Position numbers and translations under genes: made by a program
Assembly (NCBI GenBank): GCA_950295325.1
Contig: OX485805.1
Location: 47,394,758 to 47,458,757 of the forward strand
Source of the DNA: Polytrichum commune
Lineage: Eukaryota > Streptophyta > Polytrichopsida > Polytrichales > Polytrichaceae
Length of the DNA: 64,000 nucleotides
Direction of reading: 5' to 3'
Part shown: in pieces, positions 1 to 43,473 of the stretch
How the letters are laid out: the number at the start of each line of letters is the position of its first letter
Numbering within the stretch: the first letter of the stretch is position 1
The notes under the pieces: generated by a model
What the model saw: only the letters and a program-made list of their open reading frames with translations
The model's database searches: none
What the model was told of the DNA's origin: nothing

Positions 1-1884
1 AATGGTATTGAAATAAAATGACCATCAAATGCCCATACCCTAATGATATCAAAAATTGTGAAATCCTCATTATAGATATCCAAACGATATTAAAAAAAAA
101 GGATGATACTTTACCAACATTGGTATGTATGTAAATATTCATGTCACTCATCTCAAATGTGCTACATCGCTTATGGTATTTAGCAACACATGCGTAATTG
201 TGTGACTTACCCTATTTTGGGACGTATGCTACATTGCCCTAACGATTACCAACTTCACCATTAGTGTCACTTCATGACACTTGGCAGTCGAGTGCGCTTA
301 CTAATATCTTGGCATACATATTTTCAGTAGTGTTATGAGGCGTGTGCCTTTGTTATGCGAGGATCTACAAGTTGACTAGAGTGTCCACAAACTGCACTTA
401 ACATTTCCTAGTATGCTGAAGAATATCTTCCTCTTGCATAGCTCAAATGTAAACACATGACACTTGCCATTAGTATGCTCAATAATATCTTTCCCTTGCA
501 TACTAAACTAAAAAAACTATCAGCTCAAATATCCCAATGTGCTACACTCAATGTCATAAGTTAATTAAGCTTTCACTTAAAGAAGTTAGTTATGTTGATG
601 AATTAGCGGATGTGACACTTTGAAACCTCTAGACATCTAGTACATGCCCTTTGCAAAAAGTGTACATTACACTAAATACCATAAACATTGTAATTCTTTC
701 TTCCTTCCTTCCTTCCTTTCTACTTACTTGTGAAAGATGTATATACCATGTGGCAGGAATGCAATGTCCGATGCTTGCATAATCATCACAAAAGGTGGAT
801 CATAAGAACTCGGAAATGGTCTCGGGAATGGTCCAATCAAAATAATGGACTCAAGAATGTCACGATGTTATGATTTTTCATTTAAAAAAAACATTCATGT
901 TAACAATTAATATCTATTGGCAATTAATGGACATGACACTTTAAGATCTCTAGGCATCTAATTTAGGCATTTCACAAATAATTTACATGACACTAAGTAG
1001 GATGAATGGTGTATTTAATTTAATTTAATTTAATTTTTATAAAAGTGTATATGCCATGTGGCAGAAAGGCAACGTCTGGCGCTTACATATCTCAAAAGGT
1101 GACTTCTCAAAAACTTTTTCCTCTTTTGCATGGCCCAATGAACGGGTCCATTGTGCCATGTCATCAGGAGGCGCACCCCACTCATGCCACCTCATCTATC
1201 TAGTCACCGACTCGTATCCTTGATGAATGAAACCAAAAGACACAATAGTTAGTTGCATACAAGGTTCGGCATAAAACTAATGTACTAATCCGTGGAATAT
1301 TCGAGACCTCACTTTTATGATTCATAACATTTTAACAAACAAATAGAAAAAAGTGTTGATTTGGATTTAAAACAAGACAAGTATCCGGCACTATGGTGAT
1401 AAGCTACTACGGGTGTGTATGTGGTGCTCGATTCACTTTTTGATTCCCTACATTGGGCCTATAGGTACTTTCATTGATGGCATAAGGATCAATTGACAAA
1501 AGTTTGACAAGGGAATTATTGCTTTTACAACATTTGCAGTCCAGTCTTGTTTCATGTGTAGGTGGTGGAGAAGTCTTGGCAATAATGGTTCAATCAAAAT
1601 AATGGTCTTGGGGTGGAGACGATACACCATCACCAAGATAACATGTTAATGAGCCTGAAACATAACATTAATAGTAGCTGCATGATGGTTTGTTTCCAAG
1701 GAAAGAGGTTGGGACTAAAAATGCTATGATAGATTTTAACGCCTTGCTGAAAAGTTTGTGGTATACAACCCGAGTGTTCCCCATAAACGGGGAATCTTGG
1801 AACTGAATAGACAAGCATGTTCGTGTGATACACGATCCCACAGAATGCAACCAAGGAGTTGTGTAGTGTTATGAAACACATTGC

Positions 1885-2130
1885 TTAAGGTGGATGAGTC
1901 TTAAGTGGCTCGTTTTCGTAGATGAACCCCTATATTTGATTGGTATGGGGTTTAGTAAGGATCAAAGAGAAAACATCATAAAGACACGTGTTTATAAGAG
2001 ATTGGACGGTGTCTTCAAATTCTAATAAATGCTCCACACTCAATAGTGAACACGATTGAGAGGACTTATGTATCCAACTACGAAATCAACAAACATGCAC
2101 TTCCGATATGGCATTGTAAATGTACTTGTG
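1885..2130 (+). repeat. Dispersed repeat R1, copy 1
   Basis: Diverged copy of the R1 family. It shares with the copy at 38,740 the order 'cctatatttgat', 'gagattgga', 'ctcaatagtg' and 'aatcaa.aa.catgcac'. No coding capacity is seen. Confidence 0.55.
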
Positions 2131-2509
2131 GTGATCAACAATTTAATGCATTAGGAAGCTGATACAAATGGAATTCATGACATCATCAAATCACGTGATA
2201 GACATTCTCCCTAGCACTAAAATAAACTTGGTATCTAATTTGATGTTTGCGGCTTGTCATCTTCACTTGAATCTTTATAGACATTGTACTAATTTGCAAA
2301 TTTACAACAAACGAGCCTTGTAAATGCTTGAATGCCTCTCACTTTGACACATGAGGAAGTTGTCTTGAGATTAAAAAAAGAAAGTGTTTGGTGCGTATGT
2401 CAAGGTCAGGTGAGAGAAAATGTTTGTATACTTGACTTATTGTTTGGGCAATACCAATCTAAATTATATTGATACTAGAGCGATTTTAGATACCCATGAA
2501 GATTCTTGC

Positions 2510-2880
2510 ATCATATATATAAATCCGAATAAGGTAGATGTGCCTAATTCGGTTATTCATCTTAATTGGATACTTGTCTCTGAGTGATATGTGGTTGAGT
2601 GTGGCTCCAAGAATGCATACCACAATGACAAGTGTTTAAACAAGATTGAACTTACATGCTCAAAATATGATAACTACTCTAGGTTCATTAATCAACATAA
2701 TTGGGGGGGGGGACCTGTATGACCATTTAATGAGCATGAGAATCTTCACTTTGATGATGAATAAGATACTCATACGAGCTTCAAAATTTATCAAGAAAGT
2801 GGCTACAACCTCAATGTAGATTTGCTAACCATTTCGTCTTGATCATTTGTATCATATCTTGGAAGAACCGATATAGTCAG
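2510..2880 (+). repeat. Dispersed repeat R1, copy 2
   Basis: Long R1 copy. The segment 'gaccatttaatgagcatga' followed by 'aatcttcactttgatgatga' recurs with few changes at 19,600 and 46,950, and inverted at 18,740 and 35,400. It ends with the 'tagatttgctaaccat' section also seen at 18,660 and 47,045. Confidence 0.75.
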
Positions 2881-3169
2881 AAAAAAAACAACTATTCAAG
2901 ACCCATATTCTACCTTTAAAATATCGAAAGTAAAAAATACCGTCAACTATATCCTTACACATATAATATTAAGAAAAAAAAGTGAAAATCTCATTATAGT
3001 TACCCAAATGGTATTGGAAAAGAAATTTAAAAAGAAAAAACACATTACGATACCAGACCAACACTCGGTTAAAATGGCCCATCTCCCATTGGAGCCCCCT
3101 TTACCGTAAGTTACCATATTTTACTAGGCGCACAGTGAAAGTTACCTGTCCCGCATGGTAATAAATAGT

Positions 3170-5843
3170 TTTACCAGGCCATGGCCGGGCCGTGGCATCT
3201 CCTGCCTTGCCTGGCTTTGCCTTGCTCCGCTTGTCATTCTTTCTCATTCTGTCTGTCGTCGGGCATGTGAAGTCTCCGAAGCTCCATTATCATTATTGCG
3301 CAACATCCTTAGCCTAACTTAAGTTTCTACGATCGTCGATTCACCCCCACCGAGCTCCAAGAGGCCGCAGATTGCGTCCAATTCGGCTTCACGCCCAATT
3401 CTGCGTCGGATGCCGGGAGATCTCGGAGCTGGTGAGCGCAAATTCGACACATGCATTGTTGGTTAAGTGCGTTCACAAGATTTTCGAGGTTCAACCTCTG
3501 GTACTTCACTGCTTCTCCTAGGTTTCTTGTATCGAGATTATTGCCAGATGTCGCATTCCGGGCCGCGGTGTGGGGAAGAGAAGTTGGTGAGAAGAGATTT
3601 TGGTTTGTCGTTGGGTTGGTTCTTTTCCGCATGGCAGTGAGGTGACGGAAGTGCGGTTTGAATTTGTGTTGTAGGCTTTTTTGAGTGCTTCTCGGCTCCT
3701 TCTAGTTCTGCGCTTCGGATTGCGGCATTGCTGAGGTTAAGTTATTCTGCTCCTTTCTGTTTGATCGATCTCGTGGAGATCACCGTTGCGAAGGACGTAT
3801 CCTCCATTGATACCGGCGCCTGAAGAATCTTGAGAGGTGTGTGTTGTCGTCATTTTGAGTTTCTGGGAGCTTTTGTTTTACGTTTAAGGCAATTTGGTGG
3901 TTGTTGTCTGTCTTGAAAGACGTAGTTGATGAATGCGCGAGGAAGCGCCGAATTCTTCAATCTGGAATTGTGAAACTTGAGGCTCTGCTGTGCTTGGTGG
4001 AAGTTCTCAATTGTTGAGCTTGTTTTGGTCGATTGGTGATATCACCCAGTCTTGAATTTCACAGCATCTCATTGAAAGTAGCTCTTCCTCAATAGATCAC
4101 CAAAAATCCTGCTTTAGAATTTGTGTATGGTGGGTGCTCATGTTCATTTCCATTTTATCCTTGTTGGTCATCCATCGCAATTCTGAAGCAGCAGTACAAG
4201 GGTTTTGCACCATCTCACAGTACCGGTCTCCAAGACTTAAACCTTTTGAGAGAGTTCAGGTACCTATGTAGAACCTCTTTTTCAAAATCAGCCTTTCGTG
4301 CATTCAGAATCAGCCCTTGCCTCTAGCTTGAATAGCTGCATCTCGTCGCTGCAGACACAGGCTGCTCTGGATTGGTGTGGTTAGGATGAGGAATGCCCAC
4401 ATCCCATTTTACTCCGCAATGTGATGAGTTTACTTGCGCACCTTATAAGTGTACATTTCCGAAGTCTTCTGTTGATCCGAACCTAGAAGCTGCATTTGGG
4501 AGGAGATTGGGCAATGGACTGAATTGCTGAGAGTCACATCGCTTTGAGGCTACATAAAATTAAAATTTGTACGCCCATTCCCAACAATTTATGTATGGAT
4601 TCCTTTTGTCACTTGAATTTTTTCACGAACTGGGTCCTCGCAGACCATTTCAAAAAGACTTCGGAGTCAGAGAGAGGTAAACTTGCAAGACAACTTGCAT
4701 GTATGCAAATGTGGCAACAAAAGGATCTGCAACGATGGTACAGTAGTGCCAACCAGTAGTTTGCTTTTGTAACTTATATGAGTTTCACGGAATGTGGCCT
4801 GCCAATTCGAGTTGCAAACAGCTGTAATCTATGACTCTGATTAAAACCAGCTAGAAACAGCTGATTAAGAAGTTATGTATGTTCCATCAGTGAGTGATTT
4901 CGTAAATACACATATCGGAATTGATTTCTTGAGAAGGCTGCGATCATTGGTCAACATCTTTGTTGCACATCAACACCTCGCCTTGTGCCAAAAGTAGGCA
5001 GAAACCTCAATATTCGATTTGAACGGCAGATAGTATAGGCTGGGTCTTTTGAAGTCAAAGTATGGAGGGTAGCAATTGCGATCCCAAACCCATCTGATTC
5101 CGTTACTTCTGACAAAGGGAAGAGTGAAGCCAAAATTCCTGAAAGGAGGAGCGATCGGAGGGTGGACTTAGCGTTAGCGTTGTATATTGGAAAAGTTTCT
5201 ATCTAGGTTTAGAAAGGGTCATTATTGAAACCTTTCGAAGAATTCGTTAGAAAGGAGTTTGGGTTGTTCAAGTTTCAGCCGGACCAAGTTGGTTTCTTTC
5301 CTGGATCTGCCTCATTTGCCTCTAGCTTGTGAAGCTGCTGCATCTTGCCCCCTGCAGAGGCTACATCTTAATTCCCTTCACAATGTGATGAGATTGAGTC
5401 TGTTCTTTTTCAACTATTTACATAGATTGAGAGTTGTAACCTCTTTAAAATTAGATATTGACGAATCTCAGGAACGTACTCTGCTTTCTGTGGCAATCAA
5501 ATACAAGTGTTCAACTTACTTTGGAGCATTGAATTTCACTTGCATATATAATAAAGCTTAGATATTGTTGTGATGTTGTTGCGATCTGCAAGTGAGAATT
5601 TGTTCCATTTCCATTAAACTAGTCTTCAAACGGAGGTATAGGGATCTTCTTTATACTGGTGATCTCCCCTGACAAATTGACGGTACTTGTATTGTCCTTA
5701 GGAGCTGATTGGCTATGACCATTGCTGGCCCTTTCTGAATTGTTGGCCGGCTAGGATGTGTTGGTCGGCTTCATTCTTATTCTCTTATGATTAATCGTTT
5801 ACAGAAGCATACATGGTGAGTTGCAGCCTTGTGGCTTCTGTAG
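3170..5843 (+). promoter_or_regulatory. Probable promoter and leader region of the fused aldolase gene
   Basis: A GC-richer, repeat-poor stretch directly upstream of the aldolase exons. A possible first leader exon ends at a good donor near 3431 (ctg/gtgagc). I find no exon here for the missing N-terminal half of the first dehydrogenase domain: no Gly-rich Rossmann motif and no DxPVSGG-type motif. Two segments (about 4290-4440 and 5300-5395) share 'gcctctagcttg...agctgc' and 'caatgtgatgag', an old local duplication. The transcription start cannot be placed from the sequence alone. Confidence 0.4.
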
Positions 5844-27009: not shown

Positions 27010-30000
27010 TTATGATGAAACAGTGCTTTGTTTATATGCCTTCAGGACATGGCCCACAATGTCTGAGACTCCTACCCCATGTTTTACCTGCAGATGGACA
27101 TCACTGTCTTAATCAAACTTTGTAGTTAAATAGCATCTCAAAATTCAAGTGACAAGCATTTAATTCTCAGTCAGTGTGGATAGATACCCTTCAGGGTGTC
27201 ATATTTAAAGTGCTAACTCAACATTAAGCTAATGATTCATTCAACATTGGTTCAACTCATGATTCAGCCTCTTAAGCCTTGCAACTATAGAATATAGCAC
27301 AAAGAGGGGGAAAGAAGTAACCTTATCTTTGATAGGCATTGATTCAATGTTGTCATTTGATGTGATTATCCCAATGTGAAATCAGTGTTAATGTATGAAT
27401 TGAAAGGTTTGTGATAGCAGGTGGAGTTTAAAGAGCTGATAGTATATATAATCCAACTTACAAAAAAAAAGGGGGTATTGATATAGCACCTGTGCGAAGA
27501 CGAAAGGGCCCCCATCTCGCATGCGTATCGAATCACGTTCCATGACTTTCAGGTCAGCTCCCACTGCCTCTGCTAAATCTGTCTTGTTGATCACCTGTGG
27601 CAATGAAGCAACATCCATAGAGTTATCAACAACATTCCATCTCGACCAAGAATTATAAATCAAGGAAGGTTATTCTCTCCAATTCAAAAACACAACATCA
27701 TCTCAAAATGCAAGTGACCAGCGTTTAATTTTTACTCGGTGTTGATACATACCCCCCAGGTTCTAATAAATTTTCTGCGCTTACACAACATTTAGCTAAT
27801 GATTCATTCACCATTGATTCAACTGATAAAAGATAACAAAAGACTGGAATGCAATCCTATGTTTGGTAGCAGTGTTTGTAGTTTGATGCGCTTGAGAAAA
27901 TTTGAAATTAGTGTTGACATATGAATTTAGAGGTTTGTAATGTGATAAACATAGTGTTTATCCTCTGAAACACACAGTGCTGCTAATGACAGTCATAGTC
28001 AGTCCCCCACTACAGGGTGTACATTACTTAAACTGGAAAATAAGGAAGCACACACCACTATTTCTTAGCAGACAGACTTACAAGAAGATCTGCTTGCGTG
28101 ATGCCAGGGCCACCCTTTCGAGGGATTTTGTCCCCACCAGAAACATCGATGATGTAGATGATGTAGTCTGCCAGCTCCCTGCTGAAATTTGCTGCTAAGT
28201 TGTCTGAAAAGTGATTTCCAATGCACTTCAATATCAGAAAATATTACATAATCGAAAGGACAATGGACAGAAATTCTCACTACAACTGCTTCTCTTCTTA
28301 GGGGCACTTTACACCAGAGCTTGTAGAAGGGCCCACGTGGAAAGGATGGTCATGAAATAGCATGCAATTGAGTCTGGGTGCATATTTCGTTAGACTACAC
28401 TTGAAGGCCAGTGACCACATAAAGTACGGTTTTGATTTTCCATGGTACAACCATCGGATGAGTTTCCAAGGCCCTCACAATTTCATGGTCACAGCCCTTG
28501 GCCATAGTTTAAGAATGGCCCTTATTAGGTCTCAAACAAAATAAGCCAGTTTACGTATTAAACAGAAACAAATTCGACAACAGATGGAGGCTGTAAGGGA
28601 GGTGTTAAAAGATTTGAGATCCTGCATACCGCCTCCAGATTCACACAGCAATATATCGGCTTTGAAACTCTGTGAGAGCTCCTCAAGAGGTCCCAAATTG
28701 ATGCTTATATCCTCTCGAATGGCGGCATGTGGGCAACCACCTGTCTGCACTGCACAAATCCTTTCAGGAGCAAGAGCTCCGTGCTTCACCAAAAACTCCC
28801 CATCCTCTTCGGTGAAGATATCATTTGTCACCTGCCTCAAAAAAAACCCAAGTGCATTCTATTCAGCCCAAATGTTTGCACCAAGTGCTACACACCAAAA
28901 AAAACCTTTGTGGCAATAGCCTGCTGTGAGATCATAACAGGTAGAGGCAAAAAGATATAAACTTACTGCAGCAAGGCTGTACTTGTCACGCAAAGCTTCA
29001 CAAAGTGCCAACATGAGAGCTGTCTTCCTGTGTGCCAGAAGCATCAATGTACACATGACAGAGTCAGAACACGCATCTTAAAAAAATCAAAGTGAATGGA
29101 GATAACTCAAGTTCAAGAACTAGGTCTACCAACAGATGTTCAAAATGACATGTAAAGAATAATTTGAGGCAAGGGTTTCATGCAATGCTGGAATGACAAT
29201 GTGGATGCAAATAGTTGATGATGAGTATTCAACATACACCTGATGCTATTTGACATCAGTCCACCGTACCAAGAACCAAGAGAGAAGAAAAAAACAAGTT
29301 GTCATAGAGAGCAGAGTGAAAGTCACAAGAACAAAAAGAAATTACAAGAAGTCCTATTTAAGAAATTGTGCGTAAGGTTTAAAGTTTATCAATACCCAGT
29401 TCCAACTGGTCCACCAATCCCAATTGTGAATGCACGCTCCTGGAAATCTCGCGTGAGAAGAGGTGGTGCTCGTCTGCTGTAAAAACCTGGGGACTCCAGA
29501 GGCTCGTGCGTGTGTGGGGCTAATCCATCGTGTGAGTGATATTTCTTCCCATCAGCACCAACGTACTCTGCTCCTTCCCTGTTATTTTGACAGTACCATA
29601 TAGTTCAATCGCATGAGTTGAGGGTTTACTAGACAGGTGCAATTAAGCAGCAATCAGCAAATTGTAACTACATGTGCCCTTCACGTAATAGGTGACACCA
29701 GATGTAAGGGTGGCCTTTCTACCCCTTTCCTAGCACTTGATTTATGATGCATCCTACCATCTATGGTCCACCCAACCACAGTTGGGGTATAAATTTTCAA
29801 CCAACCATGTGGAAACCTAAGAGCTTGTCCATGCCCGTTCGTGGTGTTCACCTTCAAAACAAGTCAGTAGTCTTTAAAAGCCCTCTAATTCTTGTGATGC
29901 CCATTATGGGACTTAATACAGACTTAGACCAACTCGAAGATGAAGCAACACCATAATTCACACCGATTGCAACATCGGTGTCATCTTTGTTCTAATACAG

Positions 30001-30877
30001 AATGAACTCACAAATAGAATCATCATTGTGTAATAATGAATAGACATGAGTTGATGGTAGGTCTGAATTGAGGCGATCAGGTTGTCATAAGAATAGGTAG
30101 CTTAAGTCAGTGAGCTGAGCCAGCAGCACCTGAATTCCAATCAATTACCCGTGGTGTACAATTGGGAACAATCATCCTAAATTCAAGCAGTTGCAAATTT
30201 TCAAGCATTTCAACTTGGAGAACGTGCATCCTGTGACTCAAGATAGGGGTTTGGGGTTTAGGGTTCATGGGTGTGCAACCATGCATTAGGATCAACATTT
30301 CAAGCTAAAACAGAGCAAGTACTGAAAGCATAGTAAGGTATGTGGCCCTCTTGTGGGCACTCCAACTCCACAGACAATTTATGAACCATCGAAATCAGGA
30401 ATTCTCCCATCCAATTAGCCATTGAGAATCACATAGAGGTTGTCATTTCAAGTTTCTGAATCGAAGATGAGATGAAAAAGCTATAGGTGGTCAGAGTGAA
30501 GATTATCTTTCTCTTCAAGTGATCACATAGGCCCTCCCAATTGTGTTAACAATTGAACCTAGAATGGTGTCTGATTAGTCCAATCTCATTAGAACACATG
30601 TATTTTTTGGTGTCTATGTAACTACAAGCCTTGCCATATACCACTCAAAAGATCAGTATGCAATTAAGAAGAGTAACCACATAAGGCCCACATAACCTAA
30701 CAAGGGAAACGAACGAAAAAGTTGGGGATCTTACAGATGCGTATGAGTGTGACTGTGATCATGATCATCTTGGGAAATGTGAGCATGAGTGTGTTCGTGG
30801 TCATGTGAATGGCCGTGAGTGTGGGTGTGGTCATCGACATGGCCGTGAGAGTGGGTGTGAGTATCCTCCACATCCAT
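27010..30877 (-). CDS. ureG: Urease accessory GTPase UreG
   Basis: Seven exons on the minus strand: 30,877-30,735, 29,578-29,396, 29,027-28,967, 28,831-28,630, 28,203-28,082, 27,594-27,490 and 27,087-27,010. The lengths sum to 894 nt (297 residues plus stop), all borders are GT-AG and phases agree. The first exon encodes a His/Asp-rich segment (many HTH and HDH triplets) known in plant UreG to bind metal. Exon 2 ends and exon 3 starts within the P-loop GGPVGTGKTALMLA. Further motifs: [24 protein letters not shown] (the Cys-Pro-His nickel/zinc site), [30 protein letters not shown], and VINKTDLA (the NKxD guanine motif). UreG hydrolyses GTP while delivering nickel to apo-urease, with UreD, UreF and urease. 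The start ATG 30,877 opens the His-rich segment. Intron 1 carries a 5S-like SINE and an R1 copy; a tandem duplication lies just upstream. Confidence 0.95.
29640..29845 (+). mobile_element. SINE-like element related to the 5S-headed copy at 43,010 (copy A)
   Basis: The body shares 'ctatggtc.acccaa', 'attttcaaccaaccatgtgg', 'acctaag', 'gcttg.cc' and 'gcccg' in the same order as the minus-strand copy at 43,010-43,260. Its head, around 29,640-29,740, is much decayed but keeps 'gggtggcctttct...ctagcacttgat', matching the box-C end of the 5S-like head of the other copy. It lies in ureG intron 1, antisense to the gene. Borders are approximate. Confidence 0.6.
30440..30715 (-). repeat. Dispersed repeat R1, inverted copy in ureG intron 1
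   Basis: On the minus strand: 'gggcctta', 'ggttactc', 'agtggtatatgg', 'tagacacca', 'gagattgga', 'cacaattgggagggcctatg' and 'aatcttcactctga', the R1 order seen in other copies. Its right end lies only about 20 bp from exon 1 of ureG. Confidence 0.7.
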
Positions 30878-30973
30878 AGCTGCTCCTCTTCAACAGCAGA
30901 AATAATCCAACGTATATTGGAACTCTCACCCTGCTCAGCCTGAAACCCAGAGCCAGAAAGACCACCAGCACTT

Positions 30974-31889
30974 AGATCCTTCAATTCACACCATCCTCAT
31001 AAAATAACATTGTTAAGACAGTGTACCTCCAACCAATCCTCATGAGATTTTTAAGACTGTGTATGTCCAACCCTTCAACAAGGAATCAACATGCGCCAAG
31101 GAAGCACAAAGTTGCACTGTCCAATATCGTAAACTGAATCTGAGAGCACAAGTTGCTCCTTCCTATTAAAATATGATATCCTAGCTTCAAGGATTCATAC
31201 CTTACACACTATCCCCTCATGGTAGGGGCGGAAATGTGTTAAGAATCTTATGACTGTTATGGAATGATATGAAAGGTTTCGAATGATGTTGTGCTACATC
31301 TACTATCCCAATCCTCCTAGAAAATTTGCACCTTCACACACACCCCCCTTCGGTGGCCATGGCCTCCACCTGTTCCCAAAGACCTCAGAGTCCAAAATCA
31401 GACTACCTACGGAAACCAATGCATGTCCAAAACTTATCCCACAAGATGCCAAAGAAGAAAAATTTCTGCAGTTATTGAATCATGTGCTGACACCAAAAAT
31501 CAGATCCTTCAATCCACACCATCCTCCAAATCCAACATAACCTTCAACCCTCAAACAAGGAATCAAAGTGCACCAGGGAACTAGCACAAAGTTGCAGTGT
31601 CCAATATCTTGATCTGAATCTGAGAGCACCAGTAGTTCCTTCCTTTCCAGAGATGGTCTCTTAGCTTCGAGGACTCATGCTTACACACTATCCTCATGGT
31701 AAGGCCAGAAATAACATTAAGAATGTTACAAATGTTACGAATGATATGAAACGTCTAGCATGTTATGCTATCCCAATCTTCCTAGAAAATTCGCACCTCC
31801 TCATCTCCCTTACCTTTGGTGGCCATGGTCTCCACCTCGTTCTTCCACAAGACCTAAGGGCTCAAAATCAGCCTACCCACAAAACATAA
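30974..31889. repeat. Tandem duplication (period about 528 bp) upstream of ureG
   Basis: Unit 1 (30,974-31,418) and unit 2 (31,502-31,889) align from 'agatccttcaat.cacacc' through 'cacaaagttgca.tgtccaa', 'ctgaatctgagagcac', 'ttacacactatcc', 'ctatcccaatc.tcctagaa' and 'ggtggccatgg.ctccacct' to 'aaaatcag.ctacc'. Unit 1 begins about 97 bp upstream of the ureG start codon, so the duplicated DNA is the gene's leader and near-promoter. The units differ by many substitutions and small gaps, so the duplication is not recent. Confidence 0.8.
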
Positions 31890-32280
31890 TACATCCCCAA
31901 CACTTCTAATAAGCCTTATTTGGAGCAACAGATGATCACAAAACATCAATGTTGTTTTGCGGTAAGTTATAACTTAGAAGATGGTTTCCCGCAGTCAAAC
32001 GAATCATCGTTCATTCATGTGCTGACAATTGGCCCGCGAAACAGGATAGAGGAGGAAGTAGAACTTACCCACCTTAGATACCCCCGCCCTTTGGTGAGCG
32101 AGTCTGGTTCCGAGGCAAAGAACAAACTTAATGTAATGTAACGTCACAAGAGTTGCATACAATACAACAAATCCAATCGATCGCTCTCCGAGGCTTCGGA
32201 CTATGCAACGCAAACCTCGTTCGAGGGAATCTTATTGGGAATTTCGGATAAAACTCTCCGGTTTGGTGATGATTCCAATT
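31890..32280 (-). promoter_or_regulatory. Possible distal promoter of ureG
   Basis: A short stretch of mixed base composition with no repeat match (for example 'gcctcggagagcgatcgatt' on the minus strand near 32,190) lies beyond the tandem units. It could hold the transcription start, which would place the tandem units in a leader intron. This is inference from position and base composition only. Confidence 0.25.
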
Positions 32281-34390
32281 TCCTTGAAGCCTGCTAAACT
32301 TCCTTTTATTGTCAGTGCGGAACGTAGCTGAAAATGCTTAAGATGTGTATATTTAAATGTTAAAAGTCATACTTTGCATGTGATTTTTACTTCTTCAGTA
32401 GTGCCAAAAAGGATCTAAAACGTCACTACCCAATAACTTTTGCTTTGTTGTTGAAGATTTTGTCAAAAGTATATGGGCATGTGTGGTTGCAAAGGTTGTT
32501 GCGAAGCACCGTTGTCATCGACATCTTCGAATACAATCTCATGTGGACAAGGAACTTACTAGGTAGGTGTGGTATCCCAACCCGTGGCTTGGCATACAAA
32601 CCTTCAAGTTCATGCTTTATATTAGTAGAAATAATGAATACCGCACTACCTTATGCTTTTGATGAAATCTTATGTGTATTTAGTCATGTTCCTTTCTCGA
32701 TGCAAATGTCATGTCCTTCTATGTCTTGATATTCGGTGTATACAAGGTGCCTCACCAATGGTCAAACCCTCATTCACACCCAATCCCAACTTAAAAGTAC
32801 AAATCTTCGAATTCATCTAAGGTTGCAACAGAAACTTCTTTGAATTTGCCACAACTTGGAAAATAGACAAGTACACCATGTTCCCCCCTCCCCCCCCCTT
32901 TTTTCTCCCCAAACCATCATTATTAAAGCATGGGTCCATGGCTTTGTTCACGACCTAACGACCATTGTTCCATTGACTTTTAAGTTCCTACACACAAAGT
33001 CCACAAACTCATGAAACCTTTCTCACAAATTGCTATTGGGTCTTTAACCCACATCATTCTCAACAAACGTAATCTCAAAAACAAACGAGCCCTAATCCCA
33101 TTAGATTAGTATGTTCTTAATCACCTGTAGTTCACCTATACAAACTAGGTAGTAAGTAATCTTTGCAACCCCCCCTCCCTTCCCCCCATGCTCGTGGAAG
33201 CATGGGTGGAAGGTGGAGAAGAAGCAATGCATGTCATTGTACCACATTGATGTTTTTTTTATGTTTTATCTTTATTTGCACTTAGTCATTTCCTATGTAA
33301 TTTCCACTTTGCAGATGTTAACAGAGTTATCCTTACAAGATTGGGAGTAACCATCATGTGTTTGGAGGTGCATCTCGTCTTTGATGTGTTGGTTGGAAAA
33401 ATCTTTGGTTTCGACAAATACTCCACATATAGACATGCTGGGTCCACCAATCCTCGCAACTCCCAACAAGTTCCCAAGCTCAATTTACATGTTCCCAAGA
33501 GACAAACTTCAAACTCATGACAATTAATGAAACTCCAATGAGGTAAAAAAGAACTTGAAAAACTCTTTAATTATGTGTTTATTAGAGGATCCTAGCATGG
33601 GAGAGGCAAAGTATACAAAAATGAAAATGCCATTGAAACACACAAATTTGTGTGTTCTACCCCAAAAATTTTAATGATAAAAGGTGTTTAGTTAGACCGG
33701 GTCAAGTGACTTAGCCCAAGCCATGGTTTTGACCCCAAATGTCCGTCAATTGGGACATTATTTGAAGCATATTATGTATTTTATATGTATCATAAGTTTA
33801 AAAGTATTAATATCTTTCATTAGTTATATATACCATGCATTGGGTCAAATTCAACAATTTTTTTTGCCAAAATTCAATTTCTATGTCATATTCAAAGGAT
33901 ACAACCACCTTTACCTTTACCATTTCCATTATTTATAGGAGGATACATGTTATATTGTCTATGTTTAGATTCACCAATCCCATATTAAAATTAAAAATTA
34001 AAAATTCCATATTATTATTATTTTGAAAAATAAAAAATCTAAAAAATTAGTTAACATGAAAATAGTTTTACTAGTGTCAAAGTGGTAAAGGTACTACACT
34101 AGTCATAACAAGATTGTCACATCATTGTAAGTGTCTAAGCTTGCCTAAGGAACTTTGAGGATATGAAAGTACACATCTAACTTAAAGTTGGGAATGCTTA
34201 TACTTTTCCAACAATGGAAAGTGGCTTTGCCACGAGAGGCTTTGTCCTAAATGACATTTTAAAAGTAATCATTTTTATTTACAAGCCCTTTTCATATTAA
34301 ATTAGAACTTCCACTGAGCTTCACCAAACCTTAATCATTAAGTTATGACATGCATTACCTAGACCCTATTACCACTCAAAAATAATCTCC
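32281..34390. other. Intergenic DNA between ureG and the CSN1 gene
   Basis: No gene or identifiable mobile element seen. It holds C-rich runs near 32,881 and 33,170 and AT-rich DNA at 33,760-34,070. Confidence 0.5.
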
Positions 34391-34875
34391 AGAATGCCTC
34401 TATCCCATGATATGGGACATAGTCAACAAACGATGCCACATAGAGCAATGAAATGAAACTGACTTTAGAAACCCGGGAAGCCAAAAAGCTCTGCGAGCTT
34501 CTGCTGTGTGAATAGGACTGCCGATAGGCACCTCGGTTTTGGAGCCCTTAATCTGAGGACCTATCTTGGGACCTCGAATTGTCAGCATCTCGCACGGGGA
34601 CCTCGAAGCCCTAAAGAGAAATCTCCGCATAGTGCTTTCTTCTTCAGAAACGTCGCTAACATATTTAGCTACCAAACACTCATCGCATGCTCCTGCGGGG
34701 CTTCATCGTGCCTGTCGATCGATCTCGTATTTCTTGAGCTTCTTAAGCAACGCAGCCTGATTTTCGCGACGCAATCTGTCGAAGATTCGTCTGAAATTGA
34801 GTCCGATTTTAGCAAGTTTGGGCCAAGAATGTGAAGGATCGAGTTGCTCTAAGTGGGAGTAGCTGTCCGTAAGCT
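34391..34875 (+). promoter_or_regulatory. Promoter and 5' leader of the CSN1 gene
   Basis: GC content rises from about 34,450 to the start codon at 34,876, and no repeats are present, as expected for a plant promoter and leader. No individual elements can be claimed. Confidence 0.4.
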
Positions 34876-37800
34876 ATGGCGATGAGCGAGTCCGAAAATC
34901 ATGTGGCGGGGACTGGTGGGGGGACTTCGGAGGTGATTGATATTGAGAGCTATGCGAGTTTGTATACCGGGCACACCAAAATTGCCCGGCTACACTTCAT
35001 AGCGGACCACTGCAACGTGGTATCGAGAAACTTGGAGCTCGAGGCGTTGCGGATGGCGTTTGACGAGATAAAGAGAGGGGAAAATACAACTTTATTCAAG
35101 GAGTGCGTGGAGAAGATCAACGGGCGACTGGGCTCGAATTACACTTTGGACCAGGAGTGGATCGATATGGTGGATAGACGTGCTGCTCAACGCCAGGAGA
35201 AGCTCGACATGGAACTGAATGGATACAAGGTTAGGTTCGAACTCATCGATTATGTACTATATTGTTTGGGGTTTAGGATTGAAGGGGGTTGTCATACTAC
35301 AAGGGGTGATATTATACTGTGTAGGATTGTTAGGGTTTCAAGGGGGATAGAAAATTTTGGAGCTCATATGAATGTCTTGTTTTACTATTAAAGTGAAGAT
35401 TCCTTTTGCTCATTAAATGATCATATAGGTCCCCCCAATTATGTAGACTATCGAGCCTGGAATTGTGAACAATTTGGAGCACGTAGACCAATCTCTATTA
35501 AACACCTGATGCCTTTTTGGTTTCCGTGCTTAGATTCACACCTAACCATATACCCATCAAATATGGGTGCCCGATTTAGATGAGTAAGCGAATTAGGCCC
35601 ACTTACCTTCCAACAAAGTGCTCTAGCTATTTGCATCTTCCACCAGAGTTTTTTGAATGTTGAATGTTGATACAGTGGCATTATCTTATCTTGATAGCTA
35701 AACGAGTTGATCGAAGCCACGTTGACATGTAAGGATTACCCTAGGTCACGTAACCAGTTAGGCATTGCTCTATTTTGCAAGAGGAGCCAAGGCCATTCAT
35801 ATGTTACGTAGGGTTTGGCAGCCCCGCCACTCCAATTCTATCTCATTCTCTACTTCTTGCTAATGGAATAATGCTCTACATTTGAGCTGTGCAAGAGAGG
35901 ATTTGGAAGGCTAGGGGTTTAGACCTGTGTTCCACTAGGACACTTCTGTGTTTTTGAAACACCATTCATAAAATCATCTCCTGAGCTTTCATAACTCGCC
36001 GAGGGGTTGAGAGCTGAATTGTGCGATCAGGAAGGTATTTATGTTGGAATTGAACTGATTGAACGTTTATTGTCCACAGACGAACTTAATAAAGGAGAGC
36101 ATTCGAATGGGTTACAATGACTTGGGTGATTTTCATTATGCTCGTGGTGACCTTCAGCAAGCCTTTAAGTGCTACGTACGAACAAGGGATTACTGCACGA
36201 CATCAAAACACATAATTGCCATGTGCCTAAATGTAATTCTGGTCAGCATTGAGCTTGGGCACTTTGTCCATGTCTCAAACTATGTCTCAAAGGCTGATCA
36301 AACTCCTGATGTGCAAGACCAAGTTGTCATAGCCAAACTTAAATGTGCAGCAGGTCTGGCCCACCTTGAGAGCAAGAAGTACAAGCTCGCTGCTCGCAAG
36401 GTACTGCGTGCTATGGTCTACAATATCTAGTGGCTTTTCATTGTTGTCATATTTGCTCTTAATGGGAGGACAAGTGCTCCAGAGATTTGTAAATGAAAGA
36501 ATGACCAGCTACCTCATCTTGGAACTTAGTTTTTTTATTTACTAGAAAGTACTAAGCGTTTGTAGAAAGTGATGTATTATTTCTGGAGTTTGGTTTCATA
36601 GATGATCATGAGTAGCAAATGTTTATTAATGTATGTATGTCCTTATGGTGGTTATCTGGAGGAAATGAGCAAAGTGGTTTACTCAGTATATATTGGAGTT
36701 TGCAGTTTGTTGACACAAATTTTGAGTTGGGGAGCAACTACTCAGATGTTATAGCTCCTCAAGATGTTGCAACATATGGGGGCCTCTGTGCTCTTGCATC
36801 ATTTGACAGGGCAGAGCTGAAGGTACAGAAATCATTTTTCTCAATAATCCATTTCTATGACCTTTGCAGTTTCTGGGGCTCGTAAGCTTTAAGAGAGTCG
36901 TGTGATTTATTTTACTGAACACGTGCTGTGTTGAATGTGAAGAGTTGGAGGCTTTAACATGTGTTTGGTGAACAGACATTATACATGCATGCCCATCAAT
37001 TCACTTGTGTCATTGTGCTGTTATTATGTGTTGTGTAGAGTAAGGTGATTGACAGCATTAACTTCCGCAATTTTTTGGAACTGGTCCCTGAAGTGCGAGA
37101 GCTAATTCACGACTTTTATGCAAGGTACTGGTCAAATATTTCACTCAGCTCCCATGAATGTCGCCTCCTCATCTGTATGACCTATCTTGGCTTTGACATT
37201 TTTCATTTTTTGGGGAAGTTTACAAGCAATCTGTACTGTGAGAGTTGATATCACAAGCATTACTTATTTCTGTCAGAAGGTTCAAGATCTTATTGTGGCC
37301 AATAATGTACTACTGGCAAGCTATTTGTATCTAATGTTGCAATATGTAACTCTGATGTGTTGGCTGTCTGGCAGTCGGTACGCCTCCTGCCTGGGGTATT
37401 TGCAAAAACTGAAACCTAATTTATTACTTGACATCCATTTATTCGACCATGTGGAGACCCTCTATGAACAAGTCAGGCACAAGGCCCTTATTCAGTACAC
37501 CAATCCCTTCATTTCTGTAGATCTCAACACAATGGCTAGTGCTTTCAAAACAAGTGTCGCTGGGTTGGAGAAAGAACTTGCTGCACTCATCATGGAGAAC
37601 CAAATACAGGTCTGTAAATCACTAACTTAATGAAATGGTCACCTAACCAGTTCATTTGTATTCTTAAGTTCACTGCATAGCATTGAAGGTGTGAATGCTG
37701 CCACACCAAGCATCTCTGTTTGCAAGATGCCTTCTGTCTTGCTTTTATTGTCTTGCTTTACTATGTGATTTTGAGATTCTGCGAAGCTAATGAGTAAATT

Positions 37801-37988
37801 ATTCTGTGTGACAGGCTCGGATCGATTCACATAACAAAATTCTCTATGCACGACATGCAGATCAAAGAAACTCAACGTTCCAAAAAACCCTGCAAACAGG
37901 GTCAGACTTTCAGAGAGAAACCAGGGCTATGCTTCTTCGAGCGAACCTCATGCGTCAAGATTTTGTGATGAAGGGAGCGCGCAAATAG
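34876..37988 (+). CDS. CSN1: COP9 signalosome complex subunit 1
   Basis: Six exons: 34,876-35,229, 36,080-36,400, 36,706-36,822, 37,039-37,124, 37,375-37,609 and 37,815-37,988. They sum to 1,287 nt (428 residues plus stop) with consistent phases; Arabidopsis CSN1/FUS6 is about 441 aa. N-terminal part: [20 protein letters not shown] and a helical-repeat region including [20 protein letters not shown]. Then the PCI domain, with [59 protein letters not shown] and a C-terminal helix. CSN1 is the scaffold subunit of the COP9 signalosome, which removes NEDD8 from cullin-RING ligases and represses photomorphogenesis. RPN7 of the proteasome lid is the nearest paralogue; [15 protein letters not shown] and the C-terminus favour CSN1. 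Intron 1 carries an inverted R1 copy. Confidence 0.93.
35355..35609 (-). repeat. Dispersed repeat R1, inverted copy in CSN1 intron 1
   Basis: On the minus strand it starts 'ggtaagtgggcctaattcgc', 'ttactcatc', continues 'cacccatatttgatgggtat', 'atggttaggtgtgaatc' and 'aaaaaggcatca', and ends 'aatcttcactttaatagt' and 'catatgagctccaaaatttt'. One of the best-preserved R1 copies. Confidence 0.78.
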
Positions 37989-38325
37989 CCCTAACTAGAG
38001 ATTCTGCCTAATAAGTACCTCTTGAAAACATTTGGACCACCACCCCACTACAGCAAGAAACCAAGCCGAGGCATTCTGGTGATGACCAGAAGCAGGCTGG
38101 ATTCTTGTGATCGGGTGCTCTATACAGCCTTGAAATTGGCTTTTGACATTTTACTCTTAGATTTACACGCTGTTTCACTGTCTATTTGCTTGTCGCGAGC
38201 AAGTCAATGTGAGAAAGGCTGAAGTCAAAAGTCGATGCTTGATAAGGTTAAAAATCTGACAATGTTTTCCTTGATCCTGCCTCCAGAGTGCCAGCCAATA
38301 TCACATATTAATATTTTGCTTTAGG

Positions 38326-38524
38326 TTTTTATTTTTATTTTTTATTAGTGAGACAGAAGGCCGACAGGCCAGCGCCAAAGCACAGGAGGCAGTTCACCAC
38401 CTGGCAAGTTTTCCGTCAAGTAGAGAGGAGATTTCACAGTTGGGATTCGAACTGCCAATCTCTTCCTTCAGATTTGGGTATCTCTCCACCATCATCCGGT
38501 AGTTTAAGGTCATCTCGGGTAGTT
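38326..38524 (-). mobile_element. tRNA-derived SINE with A-rich tail and 17-bp target duplication
   Basis: On the minus strand an A-box-like TGGTGGAGAGA (38,491-38,481) is followed 27 nt later by a perfect B-box, AGTTCGAATCC (38,453-38,443), the spacing of a pol III tRNA promoter. The element ends in an A-rich tail (minus strand of 38,350-38,326). It is flanked by TAATATTTTGCTTTAGG (38,309-38,325) and TAATATTTTTCTTTAGG (38,525-38,541), 16 of 17 identical, a classic target-primed insertion duplication. It lies about 340 bp after the CSN1 stop codon. Confidence 0.85.
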
Positions 38525-38739
38525 TAATATTTTTCTTTAGGGTTGAGTACGAAGGTCTTGATAATTTGATTCTCCTACTACCCCTGGAATTTTTCAACTG
38601 CCATCTCAAAGGTCACTGTTGAAAGTGCACAAAATGAAAGCTAAAAGGTTCAACAGGTCGTGTGCAAAAATAAAAGCCAAAGTAACTTTTGAGTCAGACA
38701 AGACACTTGAAACAAATCATCAACTTCCCCTAAGGTTTG

Positions 38740-39120
38740 TGAGTATGATTTGGATACTTTTTGAATCGGACACCTATATTTGATCAGTGTGTGCTTAGGT
38801 GATGATTAAAGAGATTGTCAATGGGTATCTCATGTTTAAAAGAGGTTGGATCAGTACTTCAAATTTGGTAACCTACTCCACGCTCAATAGTGGCCACATT
38901 AAAAAAACCTATGTACACATTAGAGGAATCAATAAGCATGCACTTTCACTAAGAAAAACTAAATCAAAGGTCTGATTTTCAATCCGGCTTATGTTGATGT
39001 TTCACTGTAGATTTGCTATTGTGACAAAAGTTGTGTTGTGTAAATGTAAATGCTAGAAGTTGCAGAACATGAAAAATGAACCTATTAACACCCACATACA
39101 TGAATATATGTCACAATAGT
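38740..39120 (+). repeat. Dispersed repeat R1, copy after CSN1
   Basis: Begins around 'cggacacctatatttgatca' and runs through 'aagaggttgga', 'ctcaatagtggccac' and 'atcaataagcatgcac'. Its 3' part ('gatttgctattgtgacaa', 'aagttgcagaacatgaaaaa', 'acacccacatac') matches 56,545-56,660, so this copy links the two halves of the family. Confidence 0.7.
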
Positions 39121-40570
39121 TATAGCACACACAATTATCAGCCTGGTCAAACCATAGTTGAGGGTTGGAGAGCATGTTTGAAGTCTTGTTCCCCAAGGCT
39201 ATGATACATGTCATCTGATAGCAAGAGAGGAATGGAGGATGTCGAAATTGAAGACAATATCAAGGTTCTCAAAACCCTCCCTCACGTTTAGCAATTAAGA
39301 AGTGTCCACAATGTGTCAGTTTAATCAATGTTAACCTAGATATGCAACATGGTACTGTATTTCTCAACTTCACCTTAACGGTACTAGGTAGCACTTTATT
39401 AGTGTCACTTCTGACCCCTAATCTTAAGCATCAAAAAGGCCCTATCCAAGTGACGGGGCTCAACATAAACACAACGAATTATTTAAGCTATAGTCTTCAA
39501 TTTCTAATTAAAAGTGAACTTGTCTAAAATCAACTCGCTCATCAAGTACACTTGAAATTGGTTGACTATCCAATTTTAATAAAAGATTCAGGTTGAAATG
39601 CACAACCTAGCTGGGGCTTGGGTACAATTAATATAGCCTACCCTCCATATTACAACACTCTAGTCCAGGTGTCATATAATCTTCAATGCACTTGATTTGC
39701 CTCCCTACTACAACTACAAGGCTTGCAATATAATATTTTTTAGGCCAGATTTGTTATATAATAAAGGTGATTAATGTGCATATGTGCTGGGACCCGCACA
39801 TATTTCAATGTTCATAAGTGATTCATATTTTGGATTATACAGGGAAACCTTGGGGAATAGTGTGAACATATTTCTTCAATACATATGTTCTTTCATACTT
39901 ATGTATCTTTATTAAGTAAACTTATACAAAATGACATTTTACATTGAAATAGGTCATTTTCTTGAGAAACCTCGATAATACGACATTTAAGGCCACAATG
40001 TCATATTACCTAGAATATGACATTCAGTTAATACAAAAAAAAATTGCATGACCAAATGCATCTTAATAAAAGAGGGAGAACAAGGAGAACTGGGTATATT
40101 ATTTGATGATTGTAAGATTTGCCAAGACTCGTAGAACCAGTGTAAATAGGTCAAACACTGGGCCCCTTCGACCTTTAAGGGTTTAAATCCCACTGATGCC
40201 ATTCCTGATAACACTCTAGATAAATCTATTGAATGTTTTAGATTTTCTGGGTCTAAATACATAACTAGGCCTCAAAGAGAAGAAATAAGGACCTAGGTGA
40301 GAATCACTGGCACAGTCCCTAGTTACATGTACTTCATTGAAACATACAACACAACCTCATAAGAGGTCACCTGAAGTAGTGCTGGAGTCTCTGCAAAAGT
40401 CCTCTGGAAAGTTTATTGCAAAATAGGATATACTATTTCTTAGACTGCGGGATATGCCAGTGACTAGTACCTGTGCAATCTGTTAAATGTTTAAATCTCA
40501 ATCAGGAAATGCTGGCATGTGTTTATGGATCTGCAGCACATTAGAATTTGATCTCAAGCTTGAATGATGC
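39121..40570. other. Intergenic DNA between the CSN1 and ITPA genes
   Basis: No gene, RNA or convincing repeat recognised. The last few hundred bases presumably include the 3' UTR of the minus-strand ITPA gene. Confidence 0.45.
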
Positions 40571-43473
40571 TTATGCACTATCACTCGCTGGATCAATCGC
40601 CCTTGGGATTAAGTTGTAATTGTGAAAGTGTGCCTTCACTTTGTCTAGTGCTCTTCTACGATGTGATATCTTATTTTTCTCTTCCTTCAACATTTCAGCA
40701 AACCTGTATCAAACAAATTGGCAAGCATTAGTATCTATCAGAAAGGACCAATTTTTTCCACAAAAATCTGACTCAGGAAGAAATGCCTGCCTCACAATTA
40801 CATCACAAATTTTTGATCCAGTCATTTCAACATTTCAGAATCTTGCAGCAATTTCCACCAGTTGTAATAACAGACGCTTTGTGAAAAGCGCGTCAACTAC
40901 CCACAATGTCTTTTTTAAGTATTCAGAGTAAACTTACGTCAGATCATAGCCATCTGGTTGAAAAACTGGATCCCAGCCAAAATTGCCAGCTCCTCTTGCA
41001 GGAACAATCTTGCCCTGTACTTCTTCCAAGTCAGCCACCATGCAACTTGGAACACTTTATGTAAACCTTTACTTTGAAAACTGAATTTCTCATGGGAATT
41101 TCTTGCTTTGGAGATACTGAAATCTGCCACCTTGCAGTCCAATGCATAGAACAAGAGATCATTCAGGAGTATTGCCAACAGGAGCTACTAGAGTGAAATT
41201 ACCTCAGTTCGACCACTGAATGTTATTGGCTCAGAATCAGGTCCAAGAGCAAGTGAAAAGACACACAGTGCATATGCTGACTTGTCTTCGTAAGCTGCCA
41301 ACAAATTGTTCAAACCTGCAACATCCTGACTCAAGTGAGTGTCAGATAAAAGACAATGAATCTGTGGTAAATGCCAATTAAGTTGAGCTTCTAGATACGT
41401 ATCATTATGATCATGAGTAGTTTATGGTTACAATTCTTCATATCTGCAACTAACAAGGTAGAAATACATAAGATACTGCAGCACTTATGAAGTTGGGACA
41501 GTGTCTAGGACCTTTCAAATCCAGGCAACTGTAGGAACTTGAGAAAGGAGAATATCAAGCATTGTGTAAATCGTAATGTCAAAACGCCCCCTTATTTGAT
41601 ATCAAGATACAGATAAAATATACGCTACAAAGTGGTACTTATACCTTACATCTTGACATGGCTAAGCTTCCATTCGTCAACCACATTCACAATGCCATCC
41701 TACTTTCAATTGTAATGTAACATATTAGGTAACCTTCGCATGGATCCTTTCACTCAGATTTTGAGACATTGTGCTGGAAGTGCAAGTTTTGCTCATACCT
41801 TCATGACCGGTCTTCTGAAGAAACCACTTTCTGCATGTCAGGACTTCAGTAAGTTAGTTCATCAACCACATGCCTGCAAGATAACATGACAAGAATAACT
41901 TGTTGAACCAGGTGTGTTTAGCATTTCTAACAGTAATCTGTGCATGCCTGTCAGCTTCTACTCATTAGACTAAGTTTAGAGAAGTGTTGATGCCCTGTAG
42001 TACATTATAGTGTCAACTTTTGAAGCCGACCTTTATTTGCCCATTTGAAGGAAGCAATGGACACAGATGAACTTACAGTAAACATCACTGTGCTCTTTCC
42101 ATCTCACCCAAGTAATTGACATGATTTCTCATCATGGGTTTAAGAGCTTACATATAAGGGCCTGCCACCCAACCAAATCACATGAAGTAATGATGAGATG
42201 ATGAATACTGGATTACCTCACAGGCTATTGCTATAGGATAAAGTTACAAAAATAACAGCATAATTCACTGCTTGTAACAAGAGGCTAATAGTAGAAAAGT
42301 GAGAAAATTCTTGGCATCTCAAGGGCCCATTTGCAAATTATTATTATATGCAAACTTATCAGTTACGTGTGCCTCAAAAAACAAGTGAGGGCATACCTGG
42401 AAGGCCTTTTAACGCATGGAAGCATAAACAAGTGTCTTCCACTAGCACCGGTCCACCAATCTATGCACATTCAAACATAACATAACAAATGACTCAGACA
42501 ATGTTGATGTAGAGGCAACTTCATCAAGTGTAGACATAGTTAGTCAGGCTCAAACCTATATTACTGAGTTGAAATTATATACAGCTAAGCAGAAGTGATT
42601 CAGAATGAATATTATTGATATGACAGATTAACGTCATCCTGCAGCAATACCAACTTAATAGGACATGTGATGCAAGGTGAAGTGCATGATGCCCTTCACT
42701 CTACAAATCTGTTCTGTGAATGTGAATTGACTGGCTGGCTACATTCATAAGGGTCCAAGAGAGACCAGCAATTCACCTCTCTTGCTGCAAGTCGTGCCTT
42801 CGCCTTCGATATGTCTTCTGGCTCCCCTTGCAGCTCTGGAACTGCAGCAAATTCGAAATGAAAAGGAAGTCAATCCCAGGGCCATTAAAGGAGAGATGAG
42901 TTACAATGTTGCTTCGTCGTTGAGTTGATCTAAGTTTATAAAAATCCCGAAACAGGCATCACGAGAATTAGAGGCCCTCCAAAGACTACTACCTCCTTTT
43001 AAAAAGAAACACATTGTTCGGGCACGGTCAAGCCCCTAGGTGCCCACATGGTTGGTTGAAAATGTCCCGTTAGCCCGGATTCCCCCACTATGGTTCACTA
43101 TGGTTCAATTGGGTCGACCATAGGTGGTAGGGTGTAGGGTGGACCGGAAATCAAGTCCTAGAAAGGTCACTTATCCGAGTATTATTCCGGGTAGCTTAAC
43201 CTCGGAGTTCCCATGGGATCAGGGTTCAGGCCTGGCTTAGAGCTAAGGGGAACACCTGTCAAGATGTCACTGCATTTAGAAACAATAAATGTGATAAGCT
43301 CCAAGCATATATCTATATTGTCAGGCGAAGTATTCAGACTTACGATCAAGCTTTAGAGACTGGAAGGGAATGGACTGGCCGAGGATCATCTTCACTTCTT
43401 CCAACTTCTTTGCGTTTCCCGTCACGAATGTGACCGGCTTCGTCAATGTCATCTGCACTTTCGTGACCGCCAT
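40571..43473 (-). CDS. ITPA: Inosine triphosphate pyrophosphatase (ITPA/HAM1 family)
   Basis: Eight exons on the minus strand: 43,473-43,344, 42,841-42,777, 42,460-42,397, 42,161-42,152, 41,830-41,799, 41,315-41,203, 41,014-40,938 and 40,703-40,571. They sum to 624 nt (207 residues plus stop), the usual length of the family (about 200 aa), with all phases consistent. Motifs: [12 protein letters not shown] (substrate loop TxNxxK), [36 protein letters not shown] and [13 protein letters not shown]. The enzyme hydrolyses ITP, dITP and XTP to monophosphates, keeping deaminated purines out of nucleic acids; it acts in the cytosol. No targeting peptide is seen. Exon 4 is only 10 nt long but is needed for the GPYIKW motif. 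Intron 1 contains a 5S-headed SINE-like element in the same orientation. Confidence 0.95.
42152..42161 (-). other. 10-nt microexon of the ITPA gene
   Basis: On the minus strand the 10 bases GCCCTTATAT are bounded by ggcag before and gtaagc after. Joined between the exons ending at 42,397 and starting at 41,830 they complete Gly-Pro-Tyr-Ile of the conserved motif and keep the frame. Without them the reading frame is lost. Confidence 0.85.
43010..43260 (-). mobile_element. 5S-rRNA-headed SINE-like element (copy B)
   Basis: On the minus strand the head (about 43,258-43,138) follows 5S rRNA: GATCCCATGGGAACTCCG then AGGTTAAGC (box A region), then TACTCGGAT (intermediate element region), then AAGTGACCTTTCTAGGACTT (box C region). 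About 23 of the first 27 aligned bases equal the plant 5S consensus as I know it. The body that follows (to about 43,010) is not 5S and is shared with 29,745-29,845. Insertion is in ITPA intron 1. No clear target duplication or tail was found, so a 5S pseudogene fused to a repeat remains possible. Confidence 0.7.

Follow-up and report, generated by a model that had tools for sequence, protein, structure and literature searches.

A dispersed family of 5S rRNA-headed SINEs in a moss and its likely partnership with a RandI/Dualen-like LINE

The genome of the moss Polytrichum commune almost certainly contains a dispersed SINE family of hundreds of copies with a 5S rRNA-derived head, two members of which lie in the window, i.e. 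the whole 64,000-nt stretch of DNA that was analyzed. The best overall explanation, which we hold to be highly probable, is a retroposed SINE family, with a RandI/Dualen-like LINE as its likely partner. RNA polymerase III would transcribe the SINE from its 5S-type internal promoter, the LINE enzyme would recognize the 3' hairpin and the following T/C tail of the SINE RNA, and the RNA would be copied into nicked DNA by target-primed reverse transcription, the RandI/Dualen-like LINE being present in the same genome. The original prediction of a SINE-like family with a 5S head and two copies in the window is borne out, as the family is dispersed and both copies fit its consensus. The features in the window are:

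42862 to 43257, minus strand: SINE copy 1 (approximate limits; identical to the 401-nt family consensus at 299 of 358 aligned positions)
43141 to 43257, minus strand: 5S rRNA-derived head of copy 1 (6 nt missing at the intermediate element)
29622 to 29992, plus strand: SINE copy 2 (approximate limits; identical to the family consensus at 282 of 344 aligned positions)

Both copies exist where they were predicted, but the interval originally given for copy 1 (43,010-43,260) omits its 3' part, and the element length of 250 bp that was ascribed to it has to be revised, since full copies of the family are about 400 bp long with fixed ends. Because the last approximately 30 aligned bases of copy 1 fit the consensus loosely, its exact 3' end is uncertain, and its 3' hairpin is unrecognizable. 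Copy 2, for which a shared non-5S body had been predicted at 29,640-29,845, indeed has a clear body and a clear 3' end with a T-rich tail; its head is decayed and mostly unrecognizable, and BLAST of copy 2 against a full copy covered reference positions 92-360. A stretch of about 31 nt around consensus positions 205-240 is missing from the two window copies and, judged by length, from others. Both appear from their sequences to be old fossils for which a present role is not likely.

The head of copy 1 (43,141-43,260) aligned to the 5S rRNA of the same genome with a score of 29.5, compared with 3.1 +/- 1.8 and a maximum of 12.5 for 1000 dinucleotide shuffles; the 5S likeness of copy 1 exceeds chance. 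The 5S promoter boxes had been reported to keep their order and spacing in this copy, which holds in part only: 6 nt are lost between box A and box C, at the intermediate element, and box C reads GGATAAGTGACC instead of GGATGGGTGACC. Unlike copy 1, the family consensus has an uninterrupted stretch from box A to box C. Neither window copy was reported by the Rfam 5S model.

Both copies had also been placed in introns, of an ITPA and a ureG gene, respectively. Copy 1 is indeed flanked by ORFs of the minus strand, one on each side, that match Ham1p_like of the ITPA family weakly (E 0.0037 and 0.0088, neither reaching Pfam's cut-off), and it is oriented in the sense direction of these ITPA-like exons. 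The ureG gene (PF02492, E 8.3e-10 at 28,535-28,858) runs antisense to copy 2, which lies upstream of the first recognizable ureG-like exon (29,392-29,604, identified by eye and without a Pfam match), so that copy 2 may be either in the 5' flank or in an intron. Between the SINE copies, a gene of the 26S proteasome RPN7 family has an exon at 36059-36427 on the plus strand (PF10602, E 1.1e-35). A tRNA head was looked for, and ARAGORN found zero tRNA in the window.

The assembly comprises 408 Mb in 64 contigs, seven of them large, with the window on a contig of 59 Mb. The plastid psaB, on contig C8, is closest to the entries 8htu, 6l35/7xqp and 7ksq/7kux of the moss Physcomitrium patens (1700.6-1704.6 bits, with the following entry at 1667.2), and seven large contigs would agree with n=7 in Polytrichaceae. 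Searching the assembly with minus-strand positions 42,880-43,262 as the initial query gave at least 50 matches (40 scored out of 990 first-look candidates), and among the matches listed the family was found across all seven large contigs. For comparison, 38 loci (L002-L039) were aligned, along with both copies from the window, to one locus as reference; 33 of these 40 copies were full length, with an identical start base and running on to a pyrimidine tail. The 401-nt consensus was derived from these 33 full copies, which have a mean pairwise identity of 0.796 (0.726-0.857), while the identity of copies to the consensus in aligned columns is 0.823-0.915. The predicted abundance of copies with both head and body is evident from a 28-mer over the head/body junction, which occurs 840 times in the genome when up to 3 mismatches are allowed. 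The count is 419 for a body motif (up to 2 mismatches) and 300 for a tail motif (up to 3 mismatches), with 0 occurrences of the reversed control for each of the three motifs.

A search with the consensus gave a top copy of 89% identity (best 40 scored of 2730 candidates), and no recent copy was seen among these 40. The family members that were seen are old. Since the consensus was built from copies picked by their likeness to an old one, a younger subfamily could have been overlooked. At L029, L051, L065 and L071 two or more SINE pieces adjoin each other in the same orientation.

A family moved by retroposition was predicted to show target duplications and a common 3' tail, and these are present together with fixed ends. 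The 5' flank was compared with the stretch following the tail in the 33 full copies, from which the two window copies were left out, and 157 mispaired flanks served as control. Target-site duplications of 10-14 bp with a score of at least 8 were found in 13 of the 33 copies and in 0 of the 157 mispaired flanks, and at score 7 the numbers were 17 of 33 and 4 of 157. The duplications match, for instance, at 14/14 (L012), 13/13 (L007), 12/12 (L010), 11/11 (L013) and 10/10 (L004) positions, while the one in L033, counted among the 13, could be tail because it is pyrimidine-rich and abuts the tail. No duplication was found at score 8 in 20 of the 33 full copies, and none at score 7 in 16.

Scattered 5S-like sequences do occur in this genome, with at least 29 matches to the Rfam 5S model above cut-off among the 47 scored of 15,430 candidates, and an unrelated repeat could by chance have come to adjoin such 5S pseudogenes. 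We give this reading practically no credit, since the head and body are joined in the same manner in hundreds of copies and the target duplications enclose head, body and tail as one. It had been pointed out that body copies devoid of any 5S-like head elsewhere in the genome would speak for such an origin. When loci were selected by the body (20 hand-chosen of 56 exact body-motif places), 16 of the 20 had a head match, although those in L073 and L081 were merely 34 and 60 nt, and only L068, L071, L074 and L082 had none, which again argues against chance neighborhood. Among 20 loci selected by the tail (21 of the 23 first places among the matches listed) a head match was present in 12 (short in L048 and L064) and absent in 8. 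Copies shortened from the 5' side thus occur in the family, and 5' shortening is the usual outcome of target-primed reverse transcription.

Our initial guess was a Cassandra-type TRIM, i.e. a small LTR retrotransposon with 5S sequence within the LTR, or solo LTRs of such an element, and plant Cassandra elements do carry 5S sequence in LTRs of comparable length according to PMC10853983. The search for repeats and the analysis of target duplications led us to abandon this guess, and we now regard it as very improbable. A paired long repeat beside the element was absent in seven of seven loci, the sole repeat, in L008, lying away from the element. The duplications of 10-14 bp differ from the 5 bp that PMC10886601 describes for plant TRIMs with small-RNA promoters, and the copies terminate in T/C runs of variable length, which also argues against a TRIM. 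Apparent TG...CA ends on copy 1 were likewise dropped, as other copies begin and end elsewhere.

The SINE head was compared, as had been proposed, with the 5S rRNA of the species itself. Consensus positions 1-109 and the genome's own 5S gene (L041) are equal at 77 of 97 aligned positions with a score of 40.0, compared with 3.3 +/- 1.9 and a maximum of 15.5 for 1000 dinucleotide shuffles. The head is collinear with the 5S rRNA from the first nucleotides through box C, and box A, the intermediate element and box C fall inside the aligned part. An Arabidopsis thaliana 5S sequence gave a score of 35.5 with the consensus head. The stretch GGCCGGAATAGTACT is exact in the head and in the genome's own 5S and absent from the Arabidopsis 5S; other head positions side with the Arabidopsis sequence. 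The 5S head is likely of local origin.

Conservation of the head is slightly above that of body and tail, with a mean majority of 0.891 for the head, 0.870 for the body, 0.864 for the tail and 0.912 for the box C stretch. The Rfam 5S model reported two of five other loci of the family, at 23.8 and 22.0 bits with a cut-off of 38. Diverged 5S-like matches occur in pairs, spaced by about 182 bp, at C2:59433593-59433888 and C7:14288127-14288425, and may be 5S pseudogenes in tandem or a different repeat that contains 5S sequence. Inside the SINE consensus there are two T4 runs, at positions 172 and 313, and T4 or longer is present before the last 20 nt in 27 of the 33 full copies (T5 in 7, T6 in 0). 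Such internal runs could end polymerase III transcription early and so shorten the transcripts.

The 3' end of the SINE is ATTCACGCCGGTGGCAACATCGGAGTC-like (68 segments at 64 of 80 loci) and is followed by T/C runs, with 649 T and 279 C among the 1088 bases after the hairpin segment. Candidate partners were searched with Pfam profiles for endonuclease and reverse transcriptase, giving at least 150 matches each, and several reverse-transcriptase classes are present in the genome among the matches listed. Loci carrying the SINE tail alone (L086-L089, 4.4-5.5 kb) were tried as another route to the partner and rejected on their ORFs, none of which exceeded 148 aa.

The class represented by L092 has a 3' end, for example in L106, that reads CATTCACGCCGGTATCATATACTGGCGTTA and then continues in T/C runs. 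Twelve ends of this class were examined, from L092, L093 and 10 of 14 further stretches, L108-L111 being without the class. Each of the 12 forms a terminal hairpin ahead of the T/C tail (-11.1 to -15.6 kcal/mol, z -3.3 to -5.8 versus mononucleotide shuffles), and L099 and L107 are among the copies that are changed on both sides of the stem. The hairpin of the SINE consensus is weaker (-10.0 kcal/mol, z -1.6), and covariation in the SINE stem was not above that in shuffled columns, with a pairing of 0.793 compared with 0.787 (maximum 0.803). Nine of the 12 LINE ends are closer to the SINE end than all but 10-375 of 20,000 random windows, a set that may itself contain SINE pieces since its top window scored 23. 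The ends of L093, L100 and L101 were not notably SINE-like, the corresponding number of random windows being 1148-3425. Three of the 12 ends (L098, L102 and L106) contain the 12-mer ATTCACGCCGGT without a mismatch.

The SINE 3' end, with its ATTCACGCCGGT-like sequence, hairpin and T/C tail, thus resembles that of the L092-class LINE, and we consider a partnership between the two likely, although not proven. Our reservation reflects the weak BLAST result, the three of 12 ends that are unlike the SINE, and the pairing in the SINE stem that equals shuffled columns; in plain BLAST the SINE tail matched the L092 end with E 2.9, and a non-terminal L090 match was better (0.40). It is also conceivable, and in our opinion rather unlikely, that the 5S-headed SINE owed its mobility to a LINE other than the RandI/Dualen-like one and that the tails are convergent. 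The shortness of the end similarity, its lack in three of 12 ends and its weakness in BLAST would agree with convergence, and so would the existence of other reverse-transcriptase classes. The loci L094-L097, taken without defined 3' ends, had no BLAST hit to the SINE with an E under 0.9. Against convergence, the ATTCACGCCGGT-like sequence, the hairpin and the T/C tail coincide at the extreme 3' end of both SINE and LINE, and the L1-like class of L090 and L091 has a poly(A) end, unlike the SINE. A precedent is moreover provided by Chlamydomonas, where the table in PMC3747384 pairs a SINE with a (CTTT)n tail with a RandI LINE.

The favored partner, the L092-class LINE, has an open frame of 2372 aa at the L092 locus with matches to RVT_1 (114.6 bits) and RNase_H (56.0 bits), each above the Pfam cut-off, and to an APE endonuclease (Exo_endo_phos_2, PF14529, 31.7 bits with a cut-off of 27.4). 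Residues 493-581 of the C-terminal half of L092 also gave a PCIF1_WW match (E 1.7e-06) of 28.2 bits, below the cut-off of 31.1. Among 11 LINE C-termini the C-C-H-C and R-H positions are invariant and P-D is near-invariant, and with these motifs the C-termini presumably resemble the REL endonuclease found in R2-type elements. When solved structures were searched with a profile of the LINE C-terminus, nothing was significant, with R2 at E 1.0 ranking below unrelated kinases at 0.88-0.90. LINEs with both endonucleases are named Dualen or RandI in PMC3636483. The L092 class is apparently a RandI/Dualen-like LINE in a land plant, with a candidate REL-like second endonuclease. L114 together with L092 (C5:33407900-33416300) has APE, RT, RNase H and the REL-like C-terminus in one frame as well as a covarying 3'-terminal hairpin.

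No 5S-derived plant SINE was found in the titles and abstract openings of the papers that searches of the open-licence PMC literature listed, and on that basis it is a probability, not a fact, that the family is undescribed. More broadly, and with somewhat more doubt than confidence, we suggest that mosses harbor a 5S-derived SINE lineage that is moved by a dual-endonuclease RandI/Dualen-like LINE by way of a common 3' hairpin and T/C tail. If this is true, the partnership would be of the kind listed for Chlamydomonas, and such a pair in a land plant would inform how plant LINEs recognize their templates.

Animal 5S rRNA-derived SINEs constitute SINE3, and 5S-headed SINEs have arisen several times, as stated in PMC10886601. 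Like animal SINE3 as described, the moss family is short and non-autonomous, has a 5S head with box A, intermediate element and box C, and shows target duplications; it differs, comparing by description, in its plant host and, as far as seen, in having its own body, 3' hairpin and T/C tail. The 5S rRNA-related SINEs of Aspergillus fumigatus, as summarized in PMC5063351, are likewise from outside the animals and differ by description in their fungal host. Closer to the moss is SINEX-2_CR of Chlamydomonas with RandI-2/RandI-3, which shares the green lineage, a (CTTT)n tail and the pairing with a RandI LINE; its promoter is listed as unknown in the table of PMC3747384, whereas by description the moss family has a 5S head. 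The land-plant SINE/LINE pairs in the same review table have tRNA promoters. Capture of a 5S promoter by a retroelement is likewise seen in Cassandra (PMC10853983) and Ajax (PMC10886601), which in the descriptions given there are LTR elements, in contrast to the moss SINE with its longer duplications and no paired long repeats in the seven loci. The 2024 Cassandra paper (PMC10853983) cites promoter capture by SINEs as something known from animals, and PMC10886601 relays the proposal that Cassandra was born from a SINE3 inserted in an LTR. That proposal requires a plant SINE3, so the moss family makes it testable, and if our reading is true such a SINE would be the sort of donor that has been proposed for the Cassandra 5S promoter.
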